Shown: one piece after another, positions 40,631-53,871 of the stretch
Layout of the letters: every line of letters begins with the position of its first letter
How positions within the stretch are numbered: position 1 is the stretch's first letter
Source: Myxococcaceae bacterium JPH2
Lineage (GTDB): Bacteria; Myxococcota; Myxococcia; Myxococcales; Myxococcaceae
DNA length: 64,000 bases
Assembly: GCA_016458225.1 (NCBI GenBank)
Contig: JAEMGR010000019.1
Location: forward strand, 124,001-188,000
Reading direction: 5' to 3'
Notes under the pieces: model-generated
Databases searched by the model: none
What the model was told of the DNA's origin: nothing
Seen by the model: the letters and a program-made list of their open reading frames with translations, nothing else
Translations under genes and position numbers: made by a program

Positions 40631-41572
40631 TCACGCCTGGGCGATCTGCGACAGGTTCGCGCGGGCCTTCTCGATGTCGCCCTCGTACTTGAGGACGAGG
40701 TTCAGCGTGGAGGCCACCACGTCCGCGGTCAGTGACTCGGCGTTGAGCAGGGCCAGGCTCTGGGCCCAGTCGAGCGTCTCGCTGATGGACGGGGCCTTCT
40801 TGAGGTCCAGGGTGCGGATGGCCGCCACCGCCTCGATGACCTGCTCGGCGAGCGTCTGCGGCACATGCGGCAGCCGCGCGCGGACGATGCGCAGCTCGCG
40901 CTCGCGGTCCGGGAAGTCGATGTGCAGGTGCAGGCACCGGCGCTTGAGCGCGTCTGACAGCTCCCGGGCGTTGTTGGACGTCAGCACCACGCGGGGGATG
41001 TGCCGGGCCTTGAAGGTGCCCAGCTCGGGGATGGTGACCGCGTTGTCGGAGAGGACCTCCAGGAGGAAGGCCTCGAACTCGGGGTCCGCCTTGTCGATCT
41101 CATCCACCAGCAAGAGGGCAGGGCGCTCCGAGAGCTGGGCGCGCAGGATGGGGCGCGGCAGGAGGAAGCGCTCGGAGAAGAACACCGCGTCGCCGGTCGC
41201 GAGCCGGTCCGCCGCCTCGGCGAGCGTCCGGGCGCCCTCGGTCATCTCGCCAATCTTGTCCTTCAACAGCTGGGTGTAGAGCAGCTGCTTGGCGTACTCC
41301 CACTCGTAGAGAGCCTTGGCCTCGTCGAGCCCCTCGTAGCACTGGAGCCGGATGAAATCGCGGTCGAGCGCCGTGGCCAGGGCCTTGGCCAGCTCCGTCT
41401 TTCCCACGCCCGCCGGGCCCTCCACGAGGATGGGCTTGTCCATCCGGTCCGCGAGGAACGCCGCGGTGGCGATCTCGGAAGAGGACAGGTATCCCACCTG
41501 CTCCAGCCGGCTGGAGGCGTCTTCCACGCTGGCGAACGGGCGGGTGGCGGTCGTCGGATTCGAGGGGTTCAC
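40631..41572 (-). CDS. MoxR-family AAA+ ATPase
   Basis: A 313-residue AAA+ chaperone-like ATPase. Walker A 'GPAGVGKT' (52-59), Walker B 'LLLVDEIDKAD', sensor 'VVLTSNN' and 'ALKRRCLHLHIDFPD' are intact, and the CoxD/MoxR-type helix-2 insert is present. MoxR proteins mature or activate partner proteins, often with a VWA-domain protein. No VWA gene adjoins here; the next gene is the patatin lipase. GTG start. A 24-bp inverted repeat at 41683-41706 lies in its upstream region. Confidence 0.9.
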   Translation of the reverse strand: MNPSNPTTATRPFASVEDASSRLEQVGYLSSSEIATAAFLADRMDKPILVEGPAGVGKTELAKALATALDRDFIRLQCYEGLDEAKALYEWEYAKQLLYTQLLKDKIGEMTEGARTLAEAADRLATGDAVFFSERFLLPRPILRAQLSERPALLLVDEIDKADPEFEAFLLEVLSDNAVTIPELGTFKARHIPRVVLTSNNARELSDALKRRCLHLHIDFPDRERELRIVRARLPHVPQTLAEQVIEAVAAIRTLDLKKAPSISETLDWAQSLALLNAESLTADVVASTLNLVLKYEGDIEKARANLSQIAQA

Positions 41573-42102: not shown

Positions 42103-45100
42103 CTACTTGTCCAGCTCGTCCACCAGGGCGGTCCAGTCATCCTCGCCAGCGGCGGGGCTGGTGGGCAGCTGCATCATGACGGTGCGATCCGAAGGCTCCT
42201 CCAGGTCCTCGCCGAGCGGCACGGGCTGCGGCGGTGCCTGAGGCGCGGCCTTCTTCGCCGCCGGAGCCGCCGCGGCCTTGGCGGCGGGCTTCGCGGGTGC
42301 CTTGGCCGGCGTGGGAGCCGCCGCGGCGGGGACCACGGGGTTGAGCTGGGTGCGCAGCTCGGAATCCGCCTCGTCCGCGACCGGCGCGGGCGTCTTGCTC
42401 ACGGCGGCCTTGGCGGCCGGGGCGGGCGTGGCGGCCGCCGCGGGGGCCTTGCTCTTGTAGCGAGCCAGCTCCAGCTCGGCGACCTTGAGCGCCTTGCTCT
42501 TCTCCTGCACGGACTGCTGCAGGCGCGCGACCTCCTGCGCCTTGATGGCGTCGCGGCGCTCGAGCTCCGCCTTCTGCTTGGCGGACTGCTCCTCCAGCTC
42601 CTTGAGCTGGCGGGCCTCCAGGTCCTTGCGCTCCTTCTGGGCCGTGGCGAGCCGCGCGGCGGTCTCCGTGGACTTGCTCTCGGCGGCCGAGACGCGGGCG
42701 GTGAGTTCCTTCTCGACGCGGAGCTTGCCGCTCTGCGCGTTCTCGACGGCCAGCTCCAGGTCCTGGATCTTCTTCACGCGGGCCGCGAGCTGGCCCTGGA
42801 CGTCCTTGAGCTTGGTGTCGGCCTCGGCGGCGCGAGCCTGGGCCTCCTGGCCGAGCTGCGCGATGCGCTGCTCCGCCTTGGCCAGCTTCGCGGCGAGGTC
42901 ATCCGCGTGCTTCTTGGCCTCGCCAGCGGCGGCCTGGGCCTGCTGGGCCTGCTGCTGGCTGCGCGCTTCGGCTTGCTGGAGCTGTCCCGCGAAGCCATCG
43001 CGCTCCGCGACCAGCCGCGCCTGGGCCTGGGCCGCGCCCTGGAGCTGCCCGTCGCGCTCGGCGATGACCTTGCGCGCGCTGTCCAGCTCGCCCGAGACGC
43101 CGGCGAGCTGCTGGCCCATGGCATCCGCGTGCTTCTTCGCATCGGCGGCCTGGGCCTGGAGCTTTCCTTCGAGCTGCTTGAGCTGCTCGGTGCGGGTGGC
43201 CACCTCGCGGTTGAGCACCTCGCCCTGCCGCATCTTCTCCTGGGTGACCTGGGTCAGCTTGCGGAGCGTGTCGGACAGCTCCTTGCCCTTGGTGGTCAGG
43301 TCGTTCTGGAGCAGCTCCTCGCGGCGCTGGGACTCGTTGGTGAGCGCGTGGTGGCGCTCTTCCAGGTCGTGCCGTGCGTCCTCGGACTGTGCCAGCGAGG
43401 AGGTGAGGCGGGTCACCTCGGCGACGCGCTCACCCAGCTCGTGCTTGGTGACGATGAGCTGCTCGGCCAGGTCCTCGCCGTGCGTCTGCGCCTCGGCGAG
43501 CTGGCCTTCGAGCGCGGCCTGGGCGCTGGCCGCCTGCTGGCGGGAGGTGACGTGCGCCTGCTGCTCGTGGGCCAGGGCGTCCCGCGTGGCCGTGAGCTGT
43601 CCTTGCGTCTCCGCGAGCTGCCGCGACGTGGCGTCCAGCTCGGACACCAGCCCGTCGCGCTCGCCCGTGAGGGCCTGGATCTGCGCGGTCGTCTCTTCGG
43701 CCAGTCGGGCGTGTGCGCCCCGCTCGGCCTCGTAGTTCCCCTGCGTCTCCGACAGCTCGGCGCGCAGCTGGCCGATCTGCCCGGTCAGCTCCTGCTCCAG
43801 CTCGTTCTTCGCCTGACCGAGCGCCTGCAACTCGGCGATGCGCGCGTTGCGCTCCTGGGTGGTGCGCGCCAGGGAGTCATTCGTCTCCTGGAGGGCTCCG
43901 CGCGTGTCGTTCAGCTCCGCATCCAGCGCGTCGCGCTGCTGGGTGGTGGCGGAGAGCTGTTCGCGGGTCTGCTCCAGCGCTCCCTGCGTCTGCGCCAGCG
44001 TCTGGCTGGTGGCGTCCAGCTCGCCGCGCGTCTCGGCGAGGGTGGCCTCCGTGCTGGAGAGCGTGGCCTGGGTGTCCGCCAGCGTCTGCTCGGTGCTGGC
44101 GAGCGTGCCCTGCGTCTGTGCGAGGGCGTGCTCGGTGCGGGAGAGCGGCTCCTGGGTCTGCGCCAGCGTCTGGCTGGTGGCGTCCAGCTCGCCGCGCGTC
44201 TCGGCGAGGGTGGCCTCCGTGCTGGAGAGCGTGGCCTGGGTGTCCGCCAGCGTCTGCTCGGTGCTGGCGAGCGTGCCCTGCGTCTGTGCGAGGGCGTGCT
44301 CGGTGCGGGAGAGCGTCTCCTGGGTCTGCGCCAGCGTCTGGCTGGTGGCCTCCAGCTCGCCGCGGGTGCTGGACAGCGTCTCCTCGGTCTGGCCCAGGCG
44401 CGACTGCGTCTCCGCGAGCTGCTGGCTGGTGGCCTCCAGCTCCCCGCGCGTCTCGGCGAGGGTGGCCTCCGTGCTGGAGAGCGTGGCCTGGGTGTCCGCC
44501 AGCGTCTGGCTGGTGGCTTCCAGGTTGCCGGTCAGCTCGGCGATGCGCGCGTCGCGTCCGGCGACGTCGGACTGGAGTCCCTCGATGGTGGAGTCGCGCT
44601 GAGCGACGGTGTCCTCGAGCGAGGCCACGCGCGCCTGGAGCTGCTCGCCCTGCTGCTGCGAGGACTCGAGCTGCTCGGTGAGCGCTTGAATCTGGCCGGT
44701 GAGGTCGGCTTCCTGGGCCTCCTTCGCCGCGCGCAGCTCCTGGAGCTGGCCGCTGAGGTCCTGCTCCAGCGCGTCCTTCGCCTCCTGGAGCGCCTGGAGG
44801 CGACCCTGGAGGTCTTGGATCTGCCCGGTGAGGTCCTGCTCCAGCTCGTTCTTCGCCTGGCCGAGCGCTTCCAGCTCGCCCGTGAGTTCGGCCTCGCGGT
44901 CCGCGAGGTGGGCCTTGATGGCCTCGACCTCGCCCTCCAGCTCACCAATGCGCTCCAGGTGCTGCTGGATGGTCGAGTTGAGGTCGGCCTCGTGGTTCTC
45001 GTTGCGGGTGATGGTCTCCGCCAGCTCGCGCTCGAGCGAGGAGATCTTCGAGTCCCGCTCCTCGACGCGCTGGGTGAGTTCCGCCTCCTGCGCGTCCTTG

Positions 45101-46557
45101 TCCAGCTTGAGCTGATCGCGCTCGCCCGTGGTGCGCGACAGGTCGCCTTCGAGTTCGGCCACCTGCTGGGTGAGGCGCTGCTCCAGGGCGGCGCGCTCGG
45201 CGTTGAGGCGTTCGATCTCCGCGTCGGAGCGAGCGGCGTGCTCCTCGGCGGTGGCCGAGCGCGTCTCCAGGCCGCGCACCGTGTCGTCGCGCTCCTGCTC
45301 GGTTCGCCGCAGCTGCTCCTGCACGGCCTGCAGCTCGCCGGTCAGCTCGGCGTAGCGCTGATCCCGCTCGCTGATGGTGCGACCCAGCTCGGACTCGAAC
45401 CCATCGCCGCGCTCACGCAGGCGGGCGATCTCCGCCTCCTGGGCGCGCCCGGTCTCCTGGAGCCCCTGCTCCTTGACCTCGAACTCGAGCGTGACGACGC
45501 CGAGGTGCTTCTCCAGCTTGTCGTACTCGCCATTGAGGCGGTCGATCTCCGCGGCCCGGCGCCCCAGTTCGTCGTCGCGGTTGTGGACCTCCTTGCGAAG
45601 GACGTTGATGTCCTTCTCCTTGGAGGCGACGACCTCGATGAGGTCCTTCTCCGCGGAGAACTTCTGCAGGAGCAGGTCATCCACGGTGGCGCCGTGCTCG
45701 CGCTCCTTCTGGACGATGGCCTGCTGGGCGTCGTTGAAGCGGCGCAGCAGATCATCCACCTGCATCTTGAGGCCCTGCAGCTCCACGTCCTTCTCGTGGA
45801 GGCGGTCCTCGACGGACAGGAGCTCGCGCTCGCGCACGCTCCAGATTTCCGAGAGGCGGGCGAGCTGGGCCTCGCGCCCCTTCAGCTCGTCGCGGAGGAT
45901 CTGGATCTTCCCCTCCGGGGTGCCCATCAGCTCGCGGCGCGGGGGCGGGCGCTTGAGCTGGCGCGACTCGGCCAGCAGCTCCGCCTTGCGGTCCGCGATG
46001 GACTGGAAGGCGCGGTCCATGAACGCGCGATCCTCGTCGGTGATGGCGCTGCGGCGCTCGCGCTTGGGCAGCCGCGGGGGGCCTCCCGCGTTGGTGCGCA
46101 GCGGCGGAGGCATGGGCGGCGGCGACTCGCGCGGGGCGCTTCCGTTGAGCGCCGCGTCCAGCGAGTCATCCGAGTCCTCGCTCCCGGGCGTGACGATGCC
46201 GGCGCTCATCGAGGCCAGCTCGCCCATTTCGAAGGGGATGACGAGGTAGCCGTCGGCCGCGCCTTGCGTCTGACGGTGTTGGTTCAGCCCCTCCACACCC
46301 GTGTCGGAGGAGAGCAGGAGGACCTTGAGGTTCTGGCCCCACTTGCCTTTCTTGATCTGCCCGCAGAGGGTGAACCCGGACTGATCCGGCAGCTCCGCGC
46401 GAACGACGACCAGATCAGGCCGGCGCTTCTCCAACTCGCGTTGAGCGTCCGCGGACGTCGCCGCCATGGCCGTCTGGTAGCCCGCGCTTTTGAGCACGGT
46501 GGCCATGCTGAGGGCGAAGTCGTTCTGGCTTTCGACGATGAGGACCCGACGCTCCAT
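42103..46557 (-). CDS. aglZ: AglZ: pseudo-receiver plus giant coiled coil, gliding motility protein
   Basis: A 1484-residue protein. Residues 1-115 form a receiver fold ('RVLIVESQNDFALSMATVLKSAGYQTAMA'), but the phospho-acceptor position is Arg53 ('PDLVVVRAELPD'), so it cannot be phosphorylated. A linker (120-210) precedes about 1100 residues of heptad-patterned Glu/Gln/Leu-rich coiled coil (220-1350), then an Ala/Pro tail. In Myxococcus xanthus AglZ this layout builds a filament-forming partner of MglA and the Frz pathway that organises focal-adhesion (A-motility) complexes. It contains a recent 56-residue duplication at about residues 742-853. It lies directly downstream of a glycosyltransferase gene on the same strand. 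Confidence 0.85.
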   Translation of the reverse strand: MERRVLIVESQNDFALSMATVLKSAGYQTAMAATSADAQRELEKRRPDLVVVRAELPDQSGFTLCGQIKKGKWGQNLKVLLLSSDTGVEGLNQHRQTQGAADGYLVIPFEMGELASMSAGIVTPGSEDSDDSLDAALNGSAPRESPPPMPPPLRTNAGGPPRLPKRERRSAITDEDRAFMDRAFQSIADRKAELLAESRQLKRPPPRRELMGTPEGKIQILRDELKGREAQLARLSEIWSVRERELLSVEDRLHEKDVELQGLKMQVDDLLRRFNDAQQAIVQKEREHGATVDDLLLQKFSAEKDLIEVVASKEKDINVLRKEVHNRDDELGRRAAEIDRLNGEYDKLEKHLGVVTLEFEVKEQGLQETGRAQEAEIARLRERGDGFESELGRTISERDQRYAELTGELQAVQEQLRRTEQERDDTVRGLETRSATAEEHAARSDAEIERLNAERAALEQRLTQQVAELEGDLSRTTGERDQLKLDKDAQEAELTQRVEERDSKISSLERELAETITRNENHEADLNSTIQQHLERIGELEGEVEAIKAHLADREAELTGELEALGQAKNELEQDLTGQIQDLQGRLQALQEAKDALEQDLSGQLQELRAAKEAQEADLTGQIQALTEQLESSQQQGEQLQARVASLEDTVAQRDSTIEGLQSDVAGRDARIAELTGNLEATSQTLADTQATLSSTEATLAETRGELEATSQQLAETQSRLGQTEETLSSTRGELEATSQTLAQTQETLSRTEHALAQTQGTLASTEQTLADTQATLSSTEATLAETRGELDATSQTLAQTQEPLSRTEHALAQTQGTLASTEQTLADTQATLSSTEATLAETRGELDATSQTLAQTQGALEQTREQLSATTQQRDALDAELNDTRGALQETNDSLARTTQERNARIAELQALGQAKNELEQELTGQIGQLRAELSETQGNYEAERGAHARLAEETTAQIQALTGERDGLVSELDATSRQLAETQGQLTATRDALAHEQQAHVTSRQQAASAQAALEGQLAEAQTHGEDLAEQLIVTKHELGERVAEVTRLTSSLAQSEDARHDLEERHHALTNESQRREELLQNDLTTKGKELSDTLRKLTQVTQEKMRQGEVLNREVATRTEQLKQLEGKLQAQAADAKKHADAMGQQLAGVSGELDSARKVIAERDGQLQGAAQAQARLVAERDGFAGQLQQAEARSQQQAQQAQAAAGEAKKHADDLAAKLAKAEQRIAQLGQEAQARAAEADTKLKDVQGQLAARVKKIQDLELAVENAQSGKLRVEKELTARVSAAESKSTETAARLATAQKERKDLEARQLKELEEQSAKQKAELERRDAIKAQEVARLQQSVQEKSKALKVAELELARYKSKAPAAAATPAPAAKAAVSKTPAPVADEADSELRTQLNPVVPAAAAPTPAKAPAKPAAKAAAAPAAKKAAPQAPPQPVPLGEDLEEPSDRTVMMQLPTSPAAGEDDWTALVDELDK
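43991..44326 (-). repeat. Two tandem 168-bp repeats inside aglZ
   Basis: Units 43991-44158 and 44159-44326 differ at one base (44148 G versus 44316 T). Each encodes 56 residues, exactly eight heptads, so the coiled-coil register is kept. A third, diverged copy begins at 44327. The single change puts a proline (P804) where the other copy has Thr748. Confidence 0.9.
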
Positions 46558-46620
46558 GAAGCCCTTGACCCAGAAAAAAGTGCAGTGAAAACCGGAACAT
46601 CCTACCGGCCGGCAGCAAGC

Positions 46621-46637
46621 CTTGGAAAGTTTCCAAG
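46621..46637. promoter_or_regulatory. 17-bp perfect palindrome upstream of aglZ
   Basis: CTTGGAAA-G-TTTCCAAG, 20 bp after the glycosyltransferase stop and 64 bp before the aglZ ATG. With a one-base centre it cannot fold as a good RNA hairpin, so a protein-binding site for an aglZ promoter is more likely. Confidence 0.4.
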
Positions 46638-46656
46638 CGTCGCTCGGTTGGCTGCC

Positions 46657-49600
46657 TCACGAGTTGCGGCCGCGGACCGGACCTTCAGGGCCGGGATCCG
46701 AGGCGCCCTGAGGCGTTTGCGGGCCGTCATCCCGCCCGGGGAACGTCGTGGGTGGGGTGTGCCGGGCAAAGCGCGTTCCTTCAGGAGGGCAGTAGCCGTG
46801 GGCGAGCTGGGCGAACCAGGCGTTGAGGGCCGAGGGCGGTGGCTCGGGCGAAGGCCCTTCGTCATCCAGCTCGGCGTCCTCGTGCGAGGCGTCGGCCTCC
46901 AACACTTCGTCGGCGCTGATCTCCTCGGGCTCGTCGCCTCGACCGCGGGCGGACTCGGGAGCGATCTCGTGGATCTCCTCGTCCTCCAGCGGCTGGGCGT
47001 CTGACGAGGAGATCTCCTCGGGCTCGTCGTCCGCGGGCGTGTAGGTGCGAAGGGAGGCCTTGAGGACCGGCGGGGCGGCGGGACGGGACGGCAGGTCCAC
47101 CGGCGAGAGCCGAGGCGGCGGCTGGCGGGGAGGGACTGGCGGCGGGGCCGTGGCGCGCGGAGGGAGTGGCGGCGGGCGATCCGTGTCCGAGACACTGCCG
47201 CCGCGGATGGGGGCGGGGGCCTTGCCGGACTCGAAGAGGACGGGGATGCGCGTCGATGCCGTGCGTGGGGTGTCGGAGGCGGGCAGTCCGCCGCGGATGG
47301 GCGGGCGGTCGGTGTCCGACACGGTGTTCAGCCGAGGTGGGGCGGGGCGCTCCGTCTCGGGGCTGCGCGCGGGATCCGGGCTGCGAGGCGGAAGGGCCGG
47401 GAATGCCCCGGTCGAGGTGGTCCGAGGCAGCTCCGTCTTCGTCTGCACGCGGCTCGGCACGACGGAGCGCATCGGGACGATGGGCGTGGGCGCCGGCAGC
47501 TCGTGATCCTCGACCCAGGCGGTCGAGGTTCGCGAGGGAGGCGGCTCCGCGGGACGCTCGGGCGGCGTCGGACGACGGACGGGCGACGGAGGCGCGGACT
47601 CGTCGCGATCCGAGGGGCTCAGTTTGCGAGAGGGCGGCTCCTCGCCACGCTCCAGTGCAGCCGGTCGGCGGACGATGGGCGTGGGAGTCGGGGACTCCGC
47701 CTCGCGATCCACCAACACCGGTCTGCGAACAATGGGGGTGGGGGCGGGGGGCTCCTCGTCTCGCTCGATGGGCGCGGACTTCCGCGCGTTCAACGCCGCG
47801 GCGGAGTCCTCCTCATTGCGCGCGGCGAGTTCAGGGGGCGTCGGTCGACGAACCGTGAGCGCGTCTTCTTCGCGCTCGACTCGGCCGGACGAAGCCGTCC
47901 TGCGAGGCGTTTCTTCCTCGCGCTCGGGTCGCGTAGCGGCATCGTCTTTGCGCTGCGAGGCTTCGAGACCCGGCGGACGGCGAACGATGGGCGTAGGGGA
48001 CGGCGAATCCTCTTCGCCCTGCGCATCGTCAGTGGAAGTTCCGCGACGCTTGCTGCTCGTGGCCTGCGAAGTGTCGCGTTCCCGTTGCGAGTCCTCGAGG
48101 CCGAGCGGTCTGCGGACAATGGGAGTCGGCGACGGCGTGTCATCCTCACGACGCGAGCCATCCGCGCGCGTGCGACGATGCCCGTTCGCGAGAGACGAAC
48201 CCTCGTGCTCACTCGGCGGATCATCGAGCCCGAGCGGACGGCGAATGATGGGAGTGGGCGACGGTGAGTCGTCGTCGCGGTGTGCACCGGCCGTGGAGCG
48301 TGAACGGTGGTTGCCGCTCCTGGGCGAGAGGCCGGCGCGCTCACTCGGCGGATCATCGAGCCCGAGCGGACGGCGAACGATGGGCGTGGGGGAGGGGGCT
48401 TCATCCTCGCCCGGGGAGACCGCGGCGCTCAGCGTGCCGCGCTGATTCGCTGCGTTGGACGCGGCTTCATCCTGTCGCTGCGCGTCTGCATGTCCCAGCG
48501 TTTGCCGTGCGGTGGGTTCGGAGGCTTGCGCACCGTCCTCACCCTGAATGCGGTCCGCGGAGTCATCTCGCTGCGCGCTGACCCCGGGCGAAGCTGCTGC
48601 CTGCGCACGCTGCGCGTCTTCGGAAGTCGACGGGCTCTTGCCCGTGGACGCGGTCGGTGCCGCCTCGTCTCCAGGCTGCGGGCTCGCGATGTCGAGATTC
48701 CCTCGGATGCCCGAAGCGTCGTCCTTGTACTGAGCGCCCTCGTCTCCACTGTCGCGAAGTGAGGCCGACGCGTCGTTTCGCTGTTCGCTCTCTCCTTCGG
48801 GAGTTGTGCGCAGGCTCGCGGAGGCGTCGTCCGGCTTGAGTTCCGACACCGCGTCGCTGGCCTGTGTTGGCGCGATGGCGCGTGAGGCGTCCTCTTCTGG
48901 TTGCGCGCCCACTGTGTCGGGCAGCGAACGGACGCTGGAGGCGGATGGCTCGGCGGAGGCGACGGCAGCGCTCGAGCGCTCCTCTGCGTTGGCCTTATCC
49001 CCGTCGTCGACATCGCCCCGGCCACTCGTGGCGATGGGACTGTTGTCGTCCTGGGCGACTGCGGTCGTCGACTGGGGGGGGCCCGCCGTGTCCTCGCTGC
49101 TCGCGGGCTGCGTCGTCGTGGGCACTTCCACCTTCGACGTCGTGCGCGCGGAGATGGCGACGTCGACAGCGGAGGTGGTGCGCGCCGGGGATGACTTGGG
49201 CGCGGTCGGCTCGTCGAGGAGCGGAGTGGCGTCGCGCGGCGTCTTGTCCGGCGCGGTGGGGATGGGGCTCACCGTCGTGGCGGCCTCGTCGGAGGGCTCC
49301 TCTCGCAGCGGGAGCCCCATCACGACGGGGGGCTCGGCGGGGCGCGCGTCCGGCTCCGTCTTCACGAGCCGACGATCGAGGCGCTCCTCCACCACCTGAC
49401 CCACCACGATGGGCGCGCCCTCTCGCGCGTCCTGTACCGCATCCGGACTCTGATTCCGCTGCGAGGCGGTGCTCGGCGCGGACGCCTCGACAGAGGGCTC
49501 CGACACTCCCAGCAGCGCCAGACGGTTGGTGGGCGTCCCCGTCATCGTGACGTCGGGAAGTGCCTCACTGGAGTCGCCGACCGGGCGCGGCCCGCGCTTC

Positions 49601-50763
49601 TCCAACAGCCCGTCGTAGAGATCCAGGAGCTTGCCCCGGATGCGCCCCGCCTCCAGCGCGCTCTCCGCATGTGCCCGCGCCGCGCGGCCCAAGGCCAACC
49701 GCCGAGGAACATCTCGCGCCAGCTCGACAATCCGGTCCGCCATCGCGCGGACATCCCCTGGCGCGAAGAACGCGGCCGCGCTCGACGGGATGAGTTCGCG
49801 CGTGACGGGCAGATCCGCGGCGATGACCGGGCGACCCGCGGCCATGTACTCGGACACCTTCGCGAGGGGCCCGCCCTGCATCCGGTTGCGCTCGGAGTCA
49901 TCGAGCGGCAGCACGCCCACGTCCGCCAGCGCGAGCACCTTGGCCAGATCGTCGTGCGCGACCGGAGGCTGGAACTCTACCGTGTCTTGCAGGCCCAGCT
50001 CCCGCACCAGGTCCTCCAGGTGCGGCTTCCAATCCGGATGCTGGGCGCCCACCAGCGTGAGGCGCACGGGCTCCTGCTGCGAAGCAAGCGCCGTGGCGCG
50101 CAGCAACAGGGGCAATCCCTGCCAGCCCACCTGACTCCCCAGGTACATCATGCGCAGCGGCTTGCCGTCCGGCAGTCCCACCACGCTCGGGGCATACGGC
50201 GTCAGGTCCACCGGCGCGCGGACAACCCGAACTTGCTCCTCCGCCGCACCGAGCCCCTGGATGAAGCTCCGAGTCGTCTGCGAGCCGGTGATGACGAGGT
50301 CGGCGTTCATCAGGCAGAACAACTCCTGACGCCGCACCTTGGAGAGGAAGCGCCGATCGCTCTCCAACTGGGGATGGGTGAAGCGCAGCTCCTGTGAAGG
50401 GAACGTCTGCGCCTCGTAGATGAGGCGATAGCCGTAGTCGCCCTTCAGCTCGCACAGCGCATAGCCGCCGAAGGGATCCGTGAAGTGCGCGAGCGCGTAG
50501 TCCTCGCTCTCCAATTGGCGGCGCACCGCGCGCTCGAAGGCTTGGATCCGCGACGCGAGGTCTCCCGAGCCCACGGGCACGCGCAGCAGACGCGCGCCCT
50601 GGTACTTCTCGATGTGGGAGTGGTCTGGCGTCTTGGCGGAGAGCACGACCACGGTGAAGCGGTCGGGCAATGCCTTGAGATACTCCGTCAATCGACGTGA
50701 GGAGCCCGACGGACCCGGAATCACGTCGAAGCTGCACAGGAGGAGTCTGGGCAGGTCGCTCAA
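46657..50763 (-). CDS. GT4-type glycosyltransferase with very long disordered repeat tail
   Basis: A 1368-residue protein. Residues 1-390 are a GT-B glycosyltransferase: 'FDVIPGPSGSSRRLTEYLKALPDRFTVVVLSAK' at the start, 'MMYLGSQVGWQGLPLLLRA' at the donor-domain start and 'GGPLAKVSEYMAAGRPVIAADLPVTREL' at the sugar-nucleotide site. The remaining 980 residues are of low complexity, rich in Ser, Glu, Arg and Pro. They include six copies of PTPI(V/I)RRP between about 790 and 1040 and a degenerate seventh (PTPIVPMRS). The tail has no predicted fold. The fusion is unusual for a cytoplasmic glycosyltransferase. The gene is divergent from the DUF4912-GH57 pair and lies upstream of aglZ. Confidence 0.8.
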   Translation of the reverse strand: MSDLPRLLLCSFDVIPGPSGSSRRLTEYLKALPDRFTVVVLSAKTPDHSHIEKYQGARLLRVPVGSGDLASRIQAFERAVRRQLESEDYALAHFTDPFGGYALCELKGDYGYRLIYEAQTFPSQELRFTHPQLESDRRFLSKVRRQELFCLMNADLVITGSQTTRSFIQGLGAAEEQVRVVRAPVDLTPYAPSVVGLPDGKPLRMMYLGSQVGWQGLPLLLRATALASQQEPVRLTLVGAQHPDWKPHLEDLVRELGLQDTVEFQPPVAHDDLAKVLALADVGVLPLDDSERNRMQGGPLAKVSEYMAAGRPVIAADLPVTRELIPSSAAAFFAPGDVRAMADRIVELARDVPRRLALGRAARAHAESALEAGRIRGKLLDLYDGLLEKRGPRPVGDSSEALPDVTMTGTPTNRLALLGVSEPSVEASAPSTASQRNQSPDAVQDAREGAPIVVGQVVEERLDRRLVKTEPDARPAEPPVVMGLPLREEPSDEAATTVSPIPTAPDKTPRDATPLLDEPTAPKSSPARTTSAVDVAISARTTSKVEVPTTTQPASSEDTAGPPQSTTAVAQDDNSPIATSGRGDVDDGDKANAEERSSAAVASAEPSASSVRSLPDTVGAQPEEDASRAIAPTQASDAVSELKPDDASASLRTTPEGESEQRNDASASLRDSGDEGAQYKDDASGIRGNLDIASPQPGDEAAPTASTGKSPSTSEDAQRAQAAASPGVSAQRDDSADRIQGEDGAQASEPTARQTLGHADAQRQDEAASNAANQRGTLSAAVSPGEDEAPSPTPIVRRPLGLDDPPSERAGLSPRSGNHRSRSTAGAHRDDDSPSPTPIIRRPLGLDDPPSEHEGSSLANGHRRTRADGSRREDDTPSPTPIVRRPLGLEDSQRERDTSQATSSKRRGTSTDDAQGEEDSPSPTPIVRRPPGLEASQRKDDAATRPEREEETPRRTASSGRVEREEDALTVRRPTPPELAARNEEDSAAALNARKSAPIERDEEPPAPTPIVRRPVLVDREAESPTPTPIVRRPAALERGEEPPSRKLSPSDRDESAPPSPVRRPTPPERPAEPPPSRTSTAWVEDHELPAPTPIVPMRSVVPSRVQTKTELPRTTSTGAFPALPPRSPDPARSPETERPAPPRLNTVSDTDRPPIRGGLPASDTPRTASTRIPVLFESGKAPAPIRGGSVSDTDRPPPLPPRATAPPPVPPRQPPPRLSPVDLPSRPAAPPVLKASLRTYTPADDEPEEISSSDAQPLEDEEIHEIAPESARGRGDEPEEISADEVLEADASHEDAELDDEGPSPEPPPSALNAWFAQLAHGYCPPEGTRFARHTPPTTFPGRDDGPQTPQGASDPGPEGPVRGRNS
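47465..48400 (-). repeat. PTPIVRRP-coding repeat region
   Basis: Six spaced copies of a short repeat (near 47654, 47714, 47979, 48112, 48240 and 48371) plus a degenerate one near 47470. Units near 48112, 48240 and 48371 share the flanking LGL(D/E)D sequence. Spacing is irregular, 60-265 bp. Confidence 0.75.
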
Positions 50764-50896
50764 GCGGGGCGCAGGATACCGGGACGTTTCCTAGGTGTCA
50801 TGGGGGACGGACGAAGAAGCCGGGGTCGGCAGACCAACACATGTAGTGCTGACACGTTGACCCTCCGCGTGCAGCGACCTAAAGGCGAGGGTGTCC

Positions 50897-52252
50897 ATGG
50901 ACCACCTCAAGCGTGTCACCGTGAGCTACCTTCGAGAGCTGGCTCGGAAGCACCTCGGCCCTGGCCACCGCAAGAAGAACAAGCAGCAGCTCATCGCGGC
51001 ACTCGCGGCCTATGTCCCGGTCCTGGCTCGTCTGGTGCGCAGTGCCGGAGGGAGCCTCCTGCCTCGGCTCGAAGCGGCCAAGGACGCCATCCGTCGCAAG
51101 GCCCGAAGAAAGTCCCAGAAGCGGACCGAGGCCTCGTCGGAGAATGCCGGGGTGGGCGGGACCCAGGAGCGCGGCATCACGGCGGAGCAGGACTCCGGTT
51201 CAGCAACGGGTGTCGACAAAGCGAGGACGCAGGCCGACACCGCTCGAGGGGCCGCTTCCACGAAGCCCGCCCACGTCGTGAATTTTCCACCCAGGCTGCG
51301 AGGCCAGCCCGCAGCACCGGGAGCGTCGCGAGGGCAGGAGTCCACCACGTCGTCTGAAGAGGGGGCCGCGCAGGCTGCTTCCGTGGAGCTGCCACAGCAT
51401 CCGGCCGAGCCCTTGGTGGAAGGCTTCTTCGTCGCGCGCATCGCGGGTGAGCGAGAGGCACGTCGACATCATCTGTTGGAAGAGCAGGTCGCGCATCTTC
51501 CGCCCGCGGACCGTTCCGCCGAGTATGACGAGCACCTGGGCGAGCTGCCGCTGGACTACGAGGACGACACGGCGCTGTTGATGCCGCGCGACCCGCATAC
51601 GCTGTTCGTGTTCTGGGACTTCAGCCCCGCCACCCGCGCGCGCGCCTTGGAGGGACTGGACGCTCCCCGCGCGGTCCTCAAGGTGTTCGAGGGTGAACAC
51701 CTCGTGCGCGAGGTGGAGTTCGCCTTGGAGTCGCGCAGCTTCTACATCCATGGACTCCCTCCGGGGCGGCCCTATCGCGTCGAGGCGCACTTCGTCGCGA
51801 AGGATGGCAGCGGGCGCCGGATTGGGGGTTCGACGAACCGTGTGGTGCTGCCTCCCGCGGGCCCTTCCACGGACACCTCCGTTCGCTTCCTGCGCATGCC
51901 GACAGGCTTGGAGGATGCCCAGCGCGACATGGCGGAGACCGCCGCCACCGCGCACACGCGCACCGCCGAGTTCGAGGAGCGCGAGTACATTCGCTGGCGT
52001 CGAATCCAACTGCCAGGCAGCGCGGGAGCGCGAGACATTCCCGAAGTTGAGCGTGAGCGCATCGCGCGCGCGGTGCCGCCGCCGGCGCCCGGTCCAGGTG
52101 TGCCCACGGAGTCGATGCCTCGCGGAATGGGCGCATCGGATCAGCGGTACCTGAGCGGCATCGCGCGTCCACCGGGCGCGTCGGATCAGCGCTACCAGCG
52201 CTCAGAGAAGGAACCCCCCGAGCCAACGCCCCCGGGGCGTGGCCGCACGTGA
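50897..52252 (+). CDS. DUF4912 protein with SAP/Rho-N-like N-terminus
   Basis: A 451-residue protein. Residues 6-35 ('VTVSYLRELARKHLGPGHRKKNKQQLIAAL') resemble a SAP/Rho-N helix-extended-helix. A disordered stretch follows to about 205. The DUF4912 domain is 'DTALLMPRDPHTLFVFWDFSPATRARALEGLDAPRAVLKVFEG' to 'SRSFYIHGLPPGRPYRVEAHFV', a beta-sandwich that may bind carbohydrate. The tail repeats 'GASDQRYLSG/GASDQRYQRS'. ATG at 50897 is preferred over GTG at 50891 by spacing from GCGAGG. The stop overlaps the GTG of the GH57 gene (GTGA), a pairing that suggests a shared glucan function. Confidence 0.82.
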   Translation: MDHLKRVTVSYLRELARKHLGPGHRKKNKQQLIAALAAYVPVLARLVRSAGGSLLPRLEAAKDAIRRKARRKSQKRTEASSENAGVGGTQERGITAEQDSGSATGVDKARTQADTARGAASTKPAHVVNFPPRLRGQPAAPGASRGQESTTSSEEGAAQAASVELPQHPAEPLVEGFFVARIAGEREARRHHLLEEQVAHLPPADRSAEYDEHLGELPLDYEDDTALLMPRDPHTLFVFWDFSPATRARALEGLDAPRAVLKVFEGEHLVREVEFALESRSFYIHGLPPGRPYRVEAHFVAKDGSGRRIGGSTNRVVLPPAGPSTDTSVRFLRMPTGLEDAQRDMAETAATAHTRTAEFEEREYIRWRRIQLPGSAGARDIPEVERERIARAVPPPAPGPGVPTESMPRGMGASDQRYLSGIARPPGASDQRYQRSEKEPPEPTPPGRGRT

Positions 52253-53871
52253 ACCTCCAAGGACACCCAGATCGACCTATGAGCCCGGGCTCCCTCGCGC
52301 TGGTCCTGCACGCGCACCTCCCCTTCGTTCGCCATCCCGAGCATGAGAACTTCCTCGAGGAGGACTGGCTCTACGAAGCCATCTCCGAGACGTACCTCCC
52401 GCTCCTGAGGGTCTTCGACTCGCTGGCCGACGAGGACATTCCGTTCCGCCTCTCGCTGACGCTGTCGCCCACGCTCGTCACCATGCTGCGCGACGAGCTG
52501 TTGATGTCGCGCTACGCCCGGAAGCTCGATCTGCTGTGTGAGCTGGGCGCGCGCGAGGTGCACCGCACGCGCGATGATCCCACGTTCGGCCGACTGGCTC
52601 GCTTCTATCGCGACCACTTCGAGTCCCTGCGCGTCCTCTTTCGCGAGCGCTATCGGCGCGACCTCGTGGGCGCGTTCCGTCGACTCCAGGACGCGGGCCA
52701 TCTGGAGATCCTCACGTGCAACGCGACCCATGGGTTCCTGCCGCTGATGCAGCAGACGCCCGAGGCGGTGCGCGCGCAGGTGACGGTGGCGGCCAATCAC
52801 TATCGTCAGACGTTCGGGAGAGATCCCGCGGGCATCTGGTTGGCGGAGTGTGGCTACTTCCCCGGACTGGAGCGCGTGCTGGCCGCCGAGCGCATCCGCT
52901 ACTTCTTCGTGGACACGCACGGCCTCACGGACGCCACGCCTCGACCGCTGCACGGCCCCTACGCGCCCATCTTCACCGAGGCGGGGGTCGCGGCCTATGC
53001 GCGCGACCCCGAGAGCTCCCAGCAGGTGTGGAGCACCGAGCACGGGTATCCGGGCGACCCGGACTACCGCGAGTTCTATCGAGACATCGGGTGGGACCTG
53101 GACCTGGACTACGTCCGGCCCTTCATCCAGCCCACGGGCGAGCGCAAGAACACCGGCTTCAAGTACTACCGCATCACGGGCAAGACGAACGACAAGCGCC
53201 CCTATGAACCCGACGTCGCGCGCCAACGCGCCGCCGTGCACGCGGGCAACTTCCTGTTCAACCGCCAGCGCCAGATGGAGTACCTCGCCTCGCGCATGGG
53301 GGGCCGCACGCCGGTCGTCGTGGCACCGTACGACGCGGAGCTGTTCGGCCACTGGTGGTTCGAGGGACCGCACTTCATCGAGGCGCTGCTGCGTCAGGCC
53401 GTGCATGCGCGCGATCAGGTGCGGCTGGTGACGCCCTCGGATGATCTGCGCTCGCATCCGGAGAATCAGGTCGCCACGCCACCGCTGTCCTCCTGGGGCG
53501 CGGGGGGCTACGCGAACATGTGGCTGGATGGCTCCAACGATTGGATCTACCGCCACCTGCACCACTGCGCGCGCAAGATGGTGGCGCTTGCCCGCGACTT
53601 CCCCGATACGTCCGAGCTACGGCGGCGCGCCTTGAATCAGGCCGCGCGCGAGCTGTTGCTGGCGCAGTCCTCGGACTGGGCCTTCATCATGAAGACCGGC
53701 ACCATGGTGGACTACGCGGTCCGCCGCACGCAGGAGCACCTGCTGCGGTTCCTGCGCCTGCATGATCAGGTGCGCTCGGGCGCCATCGATGAGGGATGGC
53801 TGGCGCACGTGGAGGGGCGTGACAACCTGTTCCCGGAGCTGGACTATCGGGTGTACCGGCCCGTGGGGTGA
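52249..53871 (+). CDS. GH57 family glycosidase, 1,4-alpha-glucan branching enzyme type
   Basis: A 540-residue (from GTG) GH57/DUF1957 enzyme. 'ALVLHAHLPFVRHPEHENFLEE', 'ILTCNATHGFLPL', nucleophile block 'WLAECGYFPG' (Glu200) and acid block 'APYDAELFGHWW' (Asp362) are the GH57 conserved regions of the branching-enzyme subgroup. It would cut alpha-1,4-glucan and re-attach the piece as an alpha-1,6 branch. The GTG at 52249 overlaps the DUF4912 stop; ATG at 52279 is an equally plausible start because homologues begin near it. The domain has an extended loop with 'WSTEHGYPGDPDYREFYRDIGWDLDLDYVRP'. Confidence 0.92.
   Translation: MNLQGHPDRPMSPGSLALVLHAHLPFVRHPEHENFLEEDWLYEAISETYLPLLRVFDSLADEDIPFRLSLTLSPTLVTMLRDELLMSRYARKLDLLCELGAREVHRTRDDPTFGRLARFYRDHFESLRVLFRERYRRDLVGAFRRLQDAGHLEILTCNATHGFLPLMQQTPEAVRAQVTVAANHYRQTFGRDPAGIWLAECGYFPGLERVLAAERIRYFFVDTHGLTDATPRPLHGPYAPIFTEAGVAAYARDPESSQQVWSTEHGYPGDPDYREFYRDIGWDLDLDYVRPFIQPTGERKNTGFKYYRITGKTNDKRPYEPDVARQRAAVHAGNFLFNRQRQMEYLASRMGGRTPVVVAPYDAELFGHWWFEGPHFIEALLRQAVHARDQVRLVTPSDDLRSHPENQVATPPLSSWGAGGYANMWLDGSNDWIYRHLHHCARKMVALARDFPDTSELRRRALNQAARELLLAQSSDWAFIMKTGTMVDYAVRRTQEHLLRFLRLHDQVRSGAIDEGWLAHVEGRDNLFPELDYRVYRPVG

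Follow-up and report, generated by a model that had tools for sequence, protein, structure and literature searches.

The window analyzed here, a stretch of 64,000 nucleotides, comes from the 9.0 Mb genome of Myxococcaceae bacterium JPH2 (contig JAEMGR010000019.1, positions 124,001 to 188,000), and the gene that concerns us, on its minus strand (46657..50763), encodes a protein with a glycosyltransferase (GT) fold and a long disordered tail, next to a gene resembling aglZ. This GT-tail gene is a single open reading frame (ORF) with a TTG start and encodes 1368 amino acids (aa). Residues 1–390 (49594..50763) make up a GT4 domain with the GT-B fold, supported by Pfam matches, by the fold of a 763-aa homologue (L050) and by the ratio of nonsynonymous to synonymous substitutions (dN/dS). 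Pfam GT4 domains were found at residues 19–364, all scoring above their curated cut-offs: PF13692 at 73.3 bits (cut-off 27), PF00534 at 59.4 (26.4), PF13439 at 45.1 (28.5) and PF13579 at 38.1 (29.7). The AlphaFold2 model of L050 matched the GT4 structures 6kih, 3c4q and 4xsu by Foldseek with a probability of 1.00. The nearest named relative that we found, Citreicoccus inhibens (L029), is 97% identical in the GT domain, where dN/dS between the two genes is 0.08, and many residues of the domain are invariant. A separate paralogue of 409 aa (L002), 32% identical, has hardly any tail.

The tail, from residue 391 onward, consists of 15% P, 12% A, 11% S and 10% R, is also rich in E, D and T, and has almost no aromatic residues. 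In the L050 model, ten-residue means of the predicted local distance difference test (pLDDT) were 59 to 97 over the GT domain and 29 to 49 over the tail. The preliminary description of this DNA, made from the letters alone, had proposed a glycosyltransferase with a disordered tail of about 980 residues, and our analysis confirms it, as the GT4 domain is followed in one intact frame by 978 tail residues. We compared the tails of 42 complete, non-identical ORFs, the window gene included; ORFs that were incomplete or no longer than 500 aa, locus L041 and rows with identical last 120 residues were left out, and L112, L114, L117, L118, L119, L121 and L122 were added by choice. Dropped from the wider locus comparison were L055, which has only an 18-residue frame with a broken GT match, several loci that end at contig ends and the paralogue L002. 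The shortest tail had 185 residues and the longest 1429 (median, 566.5). The conserved parts of the tail are motifs in its first ~110 residues and a 34-residue peptide near the C-terminus, here called the anchor. The proximal tail (residues 391–500, 49264..49593, minus strand) has a dN/dS of 0.17 relative to L029 and carries the motifs GTPTNR, VKTEPD and PPVVMGLPLRE; across the 42 tails, the PVVMG.PL type (VVMG.PL) occurred in 34, the KT[ED][PL] type in 31 and GTPT.R in 25. The middle of the tail is hypervariable. Identity to L029 falls to 63% and then 44% in the linker that follows (residues 501–780, 48424..49263, minus strand), dN/dS there is 0.51–0.64, and the alignment of the pair contains 139 inserted columns.

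The anchor, ALNAWFAQLAHGYCPPEGTRFARHTPPTTFPGRD, occupies residues 1312–1345 (46729..46830, minus strand), 23 residues before the C-terminus. It has the form WFAQLAHGYCPP...PPTTFPGRD, and 13 of its positions are invariant among 15 diverse sequences; residues 1311–1345 show no amino acid change at all relative to L029. In a set of 40 complete ORFs, which includes the window gene and a few loci fetched twice, the anchor lay near the C-terminus in the same reading frame in 38, the exceptions being L069, where it has diverged, and L041, which stops close to the end of its contig and has no anchor. This, together with the finding that L029 has an equal layout in one 1485-aa frame, led us to reject a frameshift artifact joining two frames, a concern raised in the preliminary description. 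Pooled over 39 distinct nucleotide sequences, the proportions of synonymous and nonsynonymous differences in the anchor codons were 0.58 (pS) and 0.14 (pN), respectively, and so it is the peptide, not the DNA, that is kept. The L050 model places a short predicted helix at the anchor (residues 713–720) within a tail that is mostly coil.

We then searched with an anchor profile across 146 genomes sampled across the phylum, scoring 54 of the first-look candidates for most genomes. One match per genome, with an expectation value (E) of 7.3e-17 or better, was found in 56 of the 65 genomes sampled from the family to which the window belongs. The overall count was 58 of 146, the two genomes outside the family having weak matches (G040 and G050, E ~0.002) and no aglZ match. 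The profile misses the diverged anchor cores of L112, L114 and L115. It is nevertheless a better guide than the anchor pattern, which occurred in 42 of 42 tails, since the pattern was shaped on the positives and its count is therefore no independent test. No second copy came near significance in the source genome (next best match, E 0.29, among the best 150 of 193 candidates), and among Protein Data Bank chains only two chance-level matches were obtained (E 0.14 and 0.17).

The anchor is consistently located just ahead of an aglZ-like gene. In the window, this gene (42103..46557, minus strand, 1484 aa), which the preliminary description had put next to the glycosyltransferase, begins 99 bases downstream of the GT-tail gene on the same strand, and the two may be cotranscribed. 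Its product combines a receiver domain (Response_reg, residues 5–116) with a long coiled coil (several coiled-coil-type matches), and its best solved relative is FrzS; we call it aglZ-like on the basis of this architecture. Its N-terminal portion, used as a query, gave one match at an E of 1e-20 or better in the source genome (among the best 18 of 178 candidates). Across the 146 genomes, 70 had a GT match (E of 1e-60 or better), 93 matched the first 260 residues of AglZ (1e-20 or better), and 65 had both. Where both genes were on one contig (49 genomes), they were adjacent and on one strand with aglZ downstream in every case (49/49). All 56 genomes with a strong anchor match carried the anchor 82 to 208 bases upstream of aglZ on the same contig and strand. 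Three loci from two other families (L112, L114 and L115), also beside aglZ, keep a diverged anchor core, W[LY]...G[YF]AP.

We made two further observations on aglZ. In 29 of the 56 genomes, exactly 172 bases separate the anchor from its start (window interval 46558–46728), and a conserved peptide at the AglZ C-terminus, of the type DRTVVMQLP...DDWTALVDELDK, is present in most GT-linked genomes and diverged or missing in others. A MadB-like AAA ATPase gene also lies near aglZ (40634–41572); its score of 354 bits is under the curated cut-off of 475.

The preliminary description had drawn attention to a different element of the tail, the repeated octapeptide PTPIVRRP, as resembling a linear docking motif, and had suggested that the tail might tether polysaccharide synthesis to the motility machinery. 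The repeat region (residues 781–1100, 47464..48423, minus strand) contains five exact copies and one PTPIIRRP, and its dN/dS is ~0.3. The first four copies are spaced 43–44 residues apart; this spacing rests on the motif positions, since the three short arrays that Tandem Repeats Finder reported in the gene do not include a 43-residue repeat. Composition-preserving shuffles of the 42 tails gave no copy of the motif (mean of 0.0 in 50 rounds; for the three proximal motif types and the degenerate core P[TA]P[IV][VI], the means were 0.06–2.2 shuffled tails), and in the source genome all five copies are within the GT-tail gene, with none elsewhere. However, it is lineage specific. Exact copies were found in only 5 of the 42 tails, namely the window gene (L001), L029, two Corallococcus loci (L033 and L034) and L122; the degenerate core was present in 18, and near-matches occurred in some contig-cut Corallococcus loci. 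We therefore reject PTPIVRRP as a conserved docking motif, and its suggested phosphorylation by Ser/Thr kinases is likewise unsupported, no such kinase having been found among the 17 reading frames, covering part of the window, that were scanned with Pfam or NCBIfam. Set against the refuting outcome that the preliminary description had named, a tail missing from close relatives or unrelated there, the presence of the tail and both of its ends hold up, whereas the repeat does not outside a few genera. The idea of a tether linked to aglZ gains support, although through the anchor, which the preliminary description did not mention and which is the better docking candidate.

We tentatively propose, with a confidence somewhat short of even, that the gene encodes a GT4-fold enzyme, or a descendant without catalysis, carried on a disordered leash of variable length with two conserved ends. 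The anchor at the far end would be a docking peptide for one dedicated protein partner, most plausibly AglZ, whose gene follows directly on the same strand, or some other member of the AglZ/MglA gliding complex. Docking of this kind would keep the glycan activity of the enzyme at gliding complexes, and the linker would let the enzyme reach its substrate. Bolder still, and more doubtful to us, is the suggestion that the protein is an undescribed component of A-motility, a GT or pseudo-GT docked on AglZ through a near-invariant peptide on a leash of up to ~1400 residues, which would tie the synthesis or the sensing of glycans to focal adhesions.

Several observations weigh against this proposal. 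The predicted helix at the anchor has a low pLDDT (~48), and L050 has a second weak helix at residues 410–418. Of the 65 genomes that have GT and aglZ, 16 carry them on different contigs and are outside the 49; ten of the 16 belong to the window's family, and eight of those ten have the anchor on the contig of aglZ, within a short open frame (83–238 residues), as would fit a break of the assembly within the tail. The tail is present in the relatives examined but shortened in two small genomes of 2.7 and 2.1 Mb (L128 and L136), where a diverged GT (33% identity) remains beside aglZ with a tail of only ~45–50 residues and no anchor; these provide a natural test of the tail's purpose. Twenty-eight genomes have an aglZ match and no GT match at the cut-offs used, although in two of them (G117 and G143) the contig stops within the tail and in two (G020 and G120) the GT has diverged. 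In G021 (locus L125), matches to aglZ, DUF4912, GH57 and HtrA are kept, and both GT and anchor are gone, so AglZ can persist without the GT-tail protein. G021 is one of the nine family genomes without an anchor match, the others being three small genomes (G020, G120 and G148), two with neither GT nor aglZ match (G019 and G092) and three with many contigs in which GT was found (G108, G125 and G144).

We also looked for AglZ columns that track the loss of GT and found no convincing signal. Six columns separate 28 lineages with the anchor from 12 that lack it, but at five of these L125, which has lost GT, still has the residue typical of the lineages with the anchor, and the pattern therefore looks like descent, not covariation. 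Indeed, the association of anchor and aglZ may be a single ancestral event inherited by the clade, in which case the sampled genomes are not independent. Given these counter-cases and common descent, AglZ binding is a property that we infer.

Ten GT relatives (L103–L111 and L113) have no AglZ match within the 1.1–9.2 kb downstream of their stop codons, and their tails of ~120–280 residues have no anchor. Six of them (L103, L104, L105, L106, L108 and L111) have a different Trp motif in common, WQV or WQT (xWQVxxxS type), which would suit a docking peptide particular to each lineage.

An alternative that we consider unlikely is that the anchor docks a partner outside the gliding machine, for example in alpha-glucan metabolism, and that its position ahead of aglZ is inherited gene order. 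In many relatives, as in the window, the genes for a DUF4912 protein (50891..52252, plus strand) and a GH57 1,4-alpha-glucan branching enzyme (52249..53871, plus strand) diverge from the same spot, and AglZ is found without GT. In contrast, six relatives (L056, L061 and L063–L066) keep the GT-tail gene, anchor and aglZ with no DUF4912 or GH57 match at an E of 1e-15 within ~9 kb upstream. The loss of GT and anchor in G021 indicates that GT is dispensable to both neighbors and decides nothing between them.

Less likely again is that the leash carries a pseudo-enzyme, with the GT domain serving as a scaffold or as a sensor of sugar nucleotides and not as a working transferase. A donor-site Arg and Lys and an E-x7-E motif are typical of active GT4 members. 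Among the 52 sequences compared, the canonical Lys (the GR....KG stretch of 6kih) was present in none and the canonical Arg in one, being replaced in the other 51. The second Glu of E-x7-E is missing in several; the window protein has it (Glu305), and the first was not seen in the alignment with 6kih. The absence of the Lys from all 52 leaves GT activity in doubt. Against a pseudo-enzyme speak the strong constraint on the domain and its many invariant residues, and other GT4 branches without the donor-site Lys may be active. The domain could be either an atypical GT4 or a pseudo-enzyme.

Two further explanations have little in their favor. That the tail is a neutral low-complexity expansion without function is very improbable, for despite the fast-evolving linker and its insertions, both ends are conserved (the anchor in nearly all complete ORFs, the VVMG.PL type in most tails) and even the repeat region has a dN/dS of ~0.3. 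That the anchor is kept as a regulatory DNA element of aglZ, as its near-constant spacing could suggest, is more improbable still, given that its synonymous sites vary while its residues hardly do and that a simple consensus scan of 46400–46800, which did not cover other promoter types, found no sigma-70-like or terminator-like site.

To our knowledge, the tie between myxobacterial gliding complexes and surface glycans is not settled, and a GT gene ahead of aglZ with a conserved 34-residue peptide near the tip of its leash offers a small, directly testable handle on it. In searches of a limited literature collection on AglZ with glycosyltransferase and on MXAN_2991/MXAN_2992, none of the titles or abstract starts listed dealt with the GT-tail gene, and of the two locus tags MXAN_2991 alone was retrieved.

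The protein can be compared with known systems at each of its parts. It shares the GT4 domain and GT-B fold with sucrose-phosphate synthase Tll1590 (6kih), MshA (3c4q) and HepE/Alr3699 (4xsu), but identity in the fold alignments is 17–20%, those chains of 367–400 residues have no long tail, and the canonical donor-site Arg and Lys are missing from the GT-tail protein. The neighboring gene product resembles AglZ and FrzS in joining a receiver domain to an extended coiled coil (PMC4546325), whereas the GT-tail protein itself is outside that family. AglZ has been described as an A-motility protein that interacts with MglA and originated when a FrzS ancestor was duplicated in the lineage where A-motility emerged (PMC4546325), and a fusion of AglZ to yellow fluorescent protein (AglZ-YFP) is used as a focal-adhesion marker (PMC2907295). 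The nearest architectural parallel that we encountered, and a precedent for the proposed docking, is RomR of Myxococcus xanthus, which belongs to the same polarity and motility network as AglZ and consists of a folded N-terminal domain, a Pro-rich disordered linker and a C-terminal docking helix, in which W394 is crucial for the interaction with MglC (PMC12719032). The likeness is one of architecture: RomR has a receiver domain in place of the glycosyltransferase and a docking helix of ~50 residues, but it, too, joins a folded domain through a disordered linker to a C-terminal docking element with a crucial Trp.

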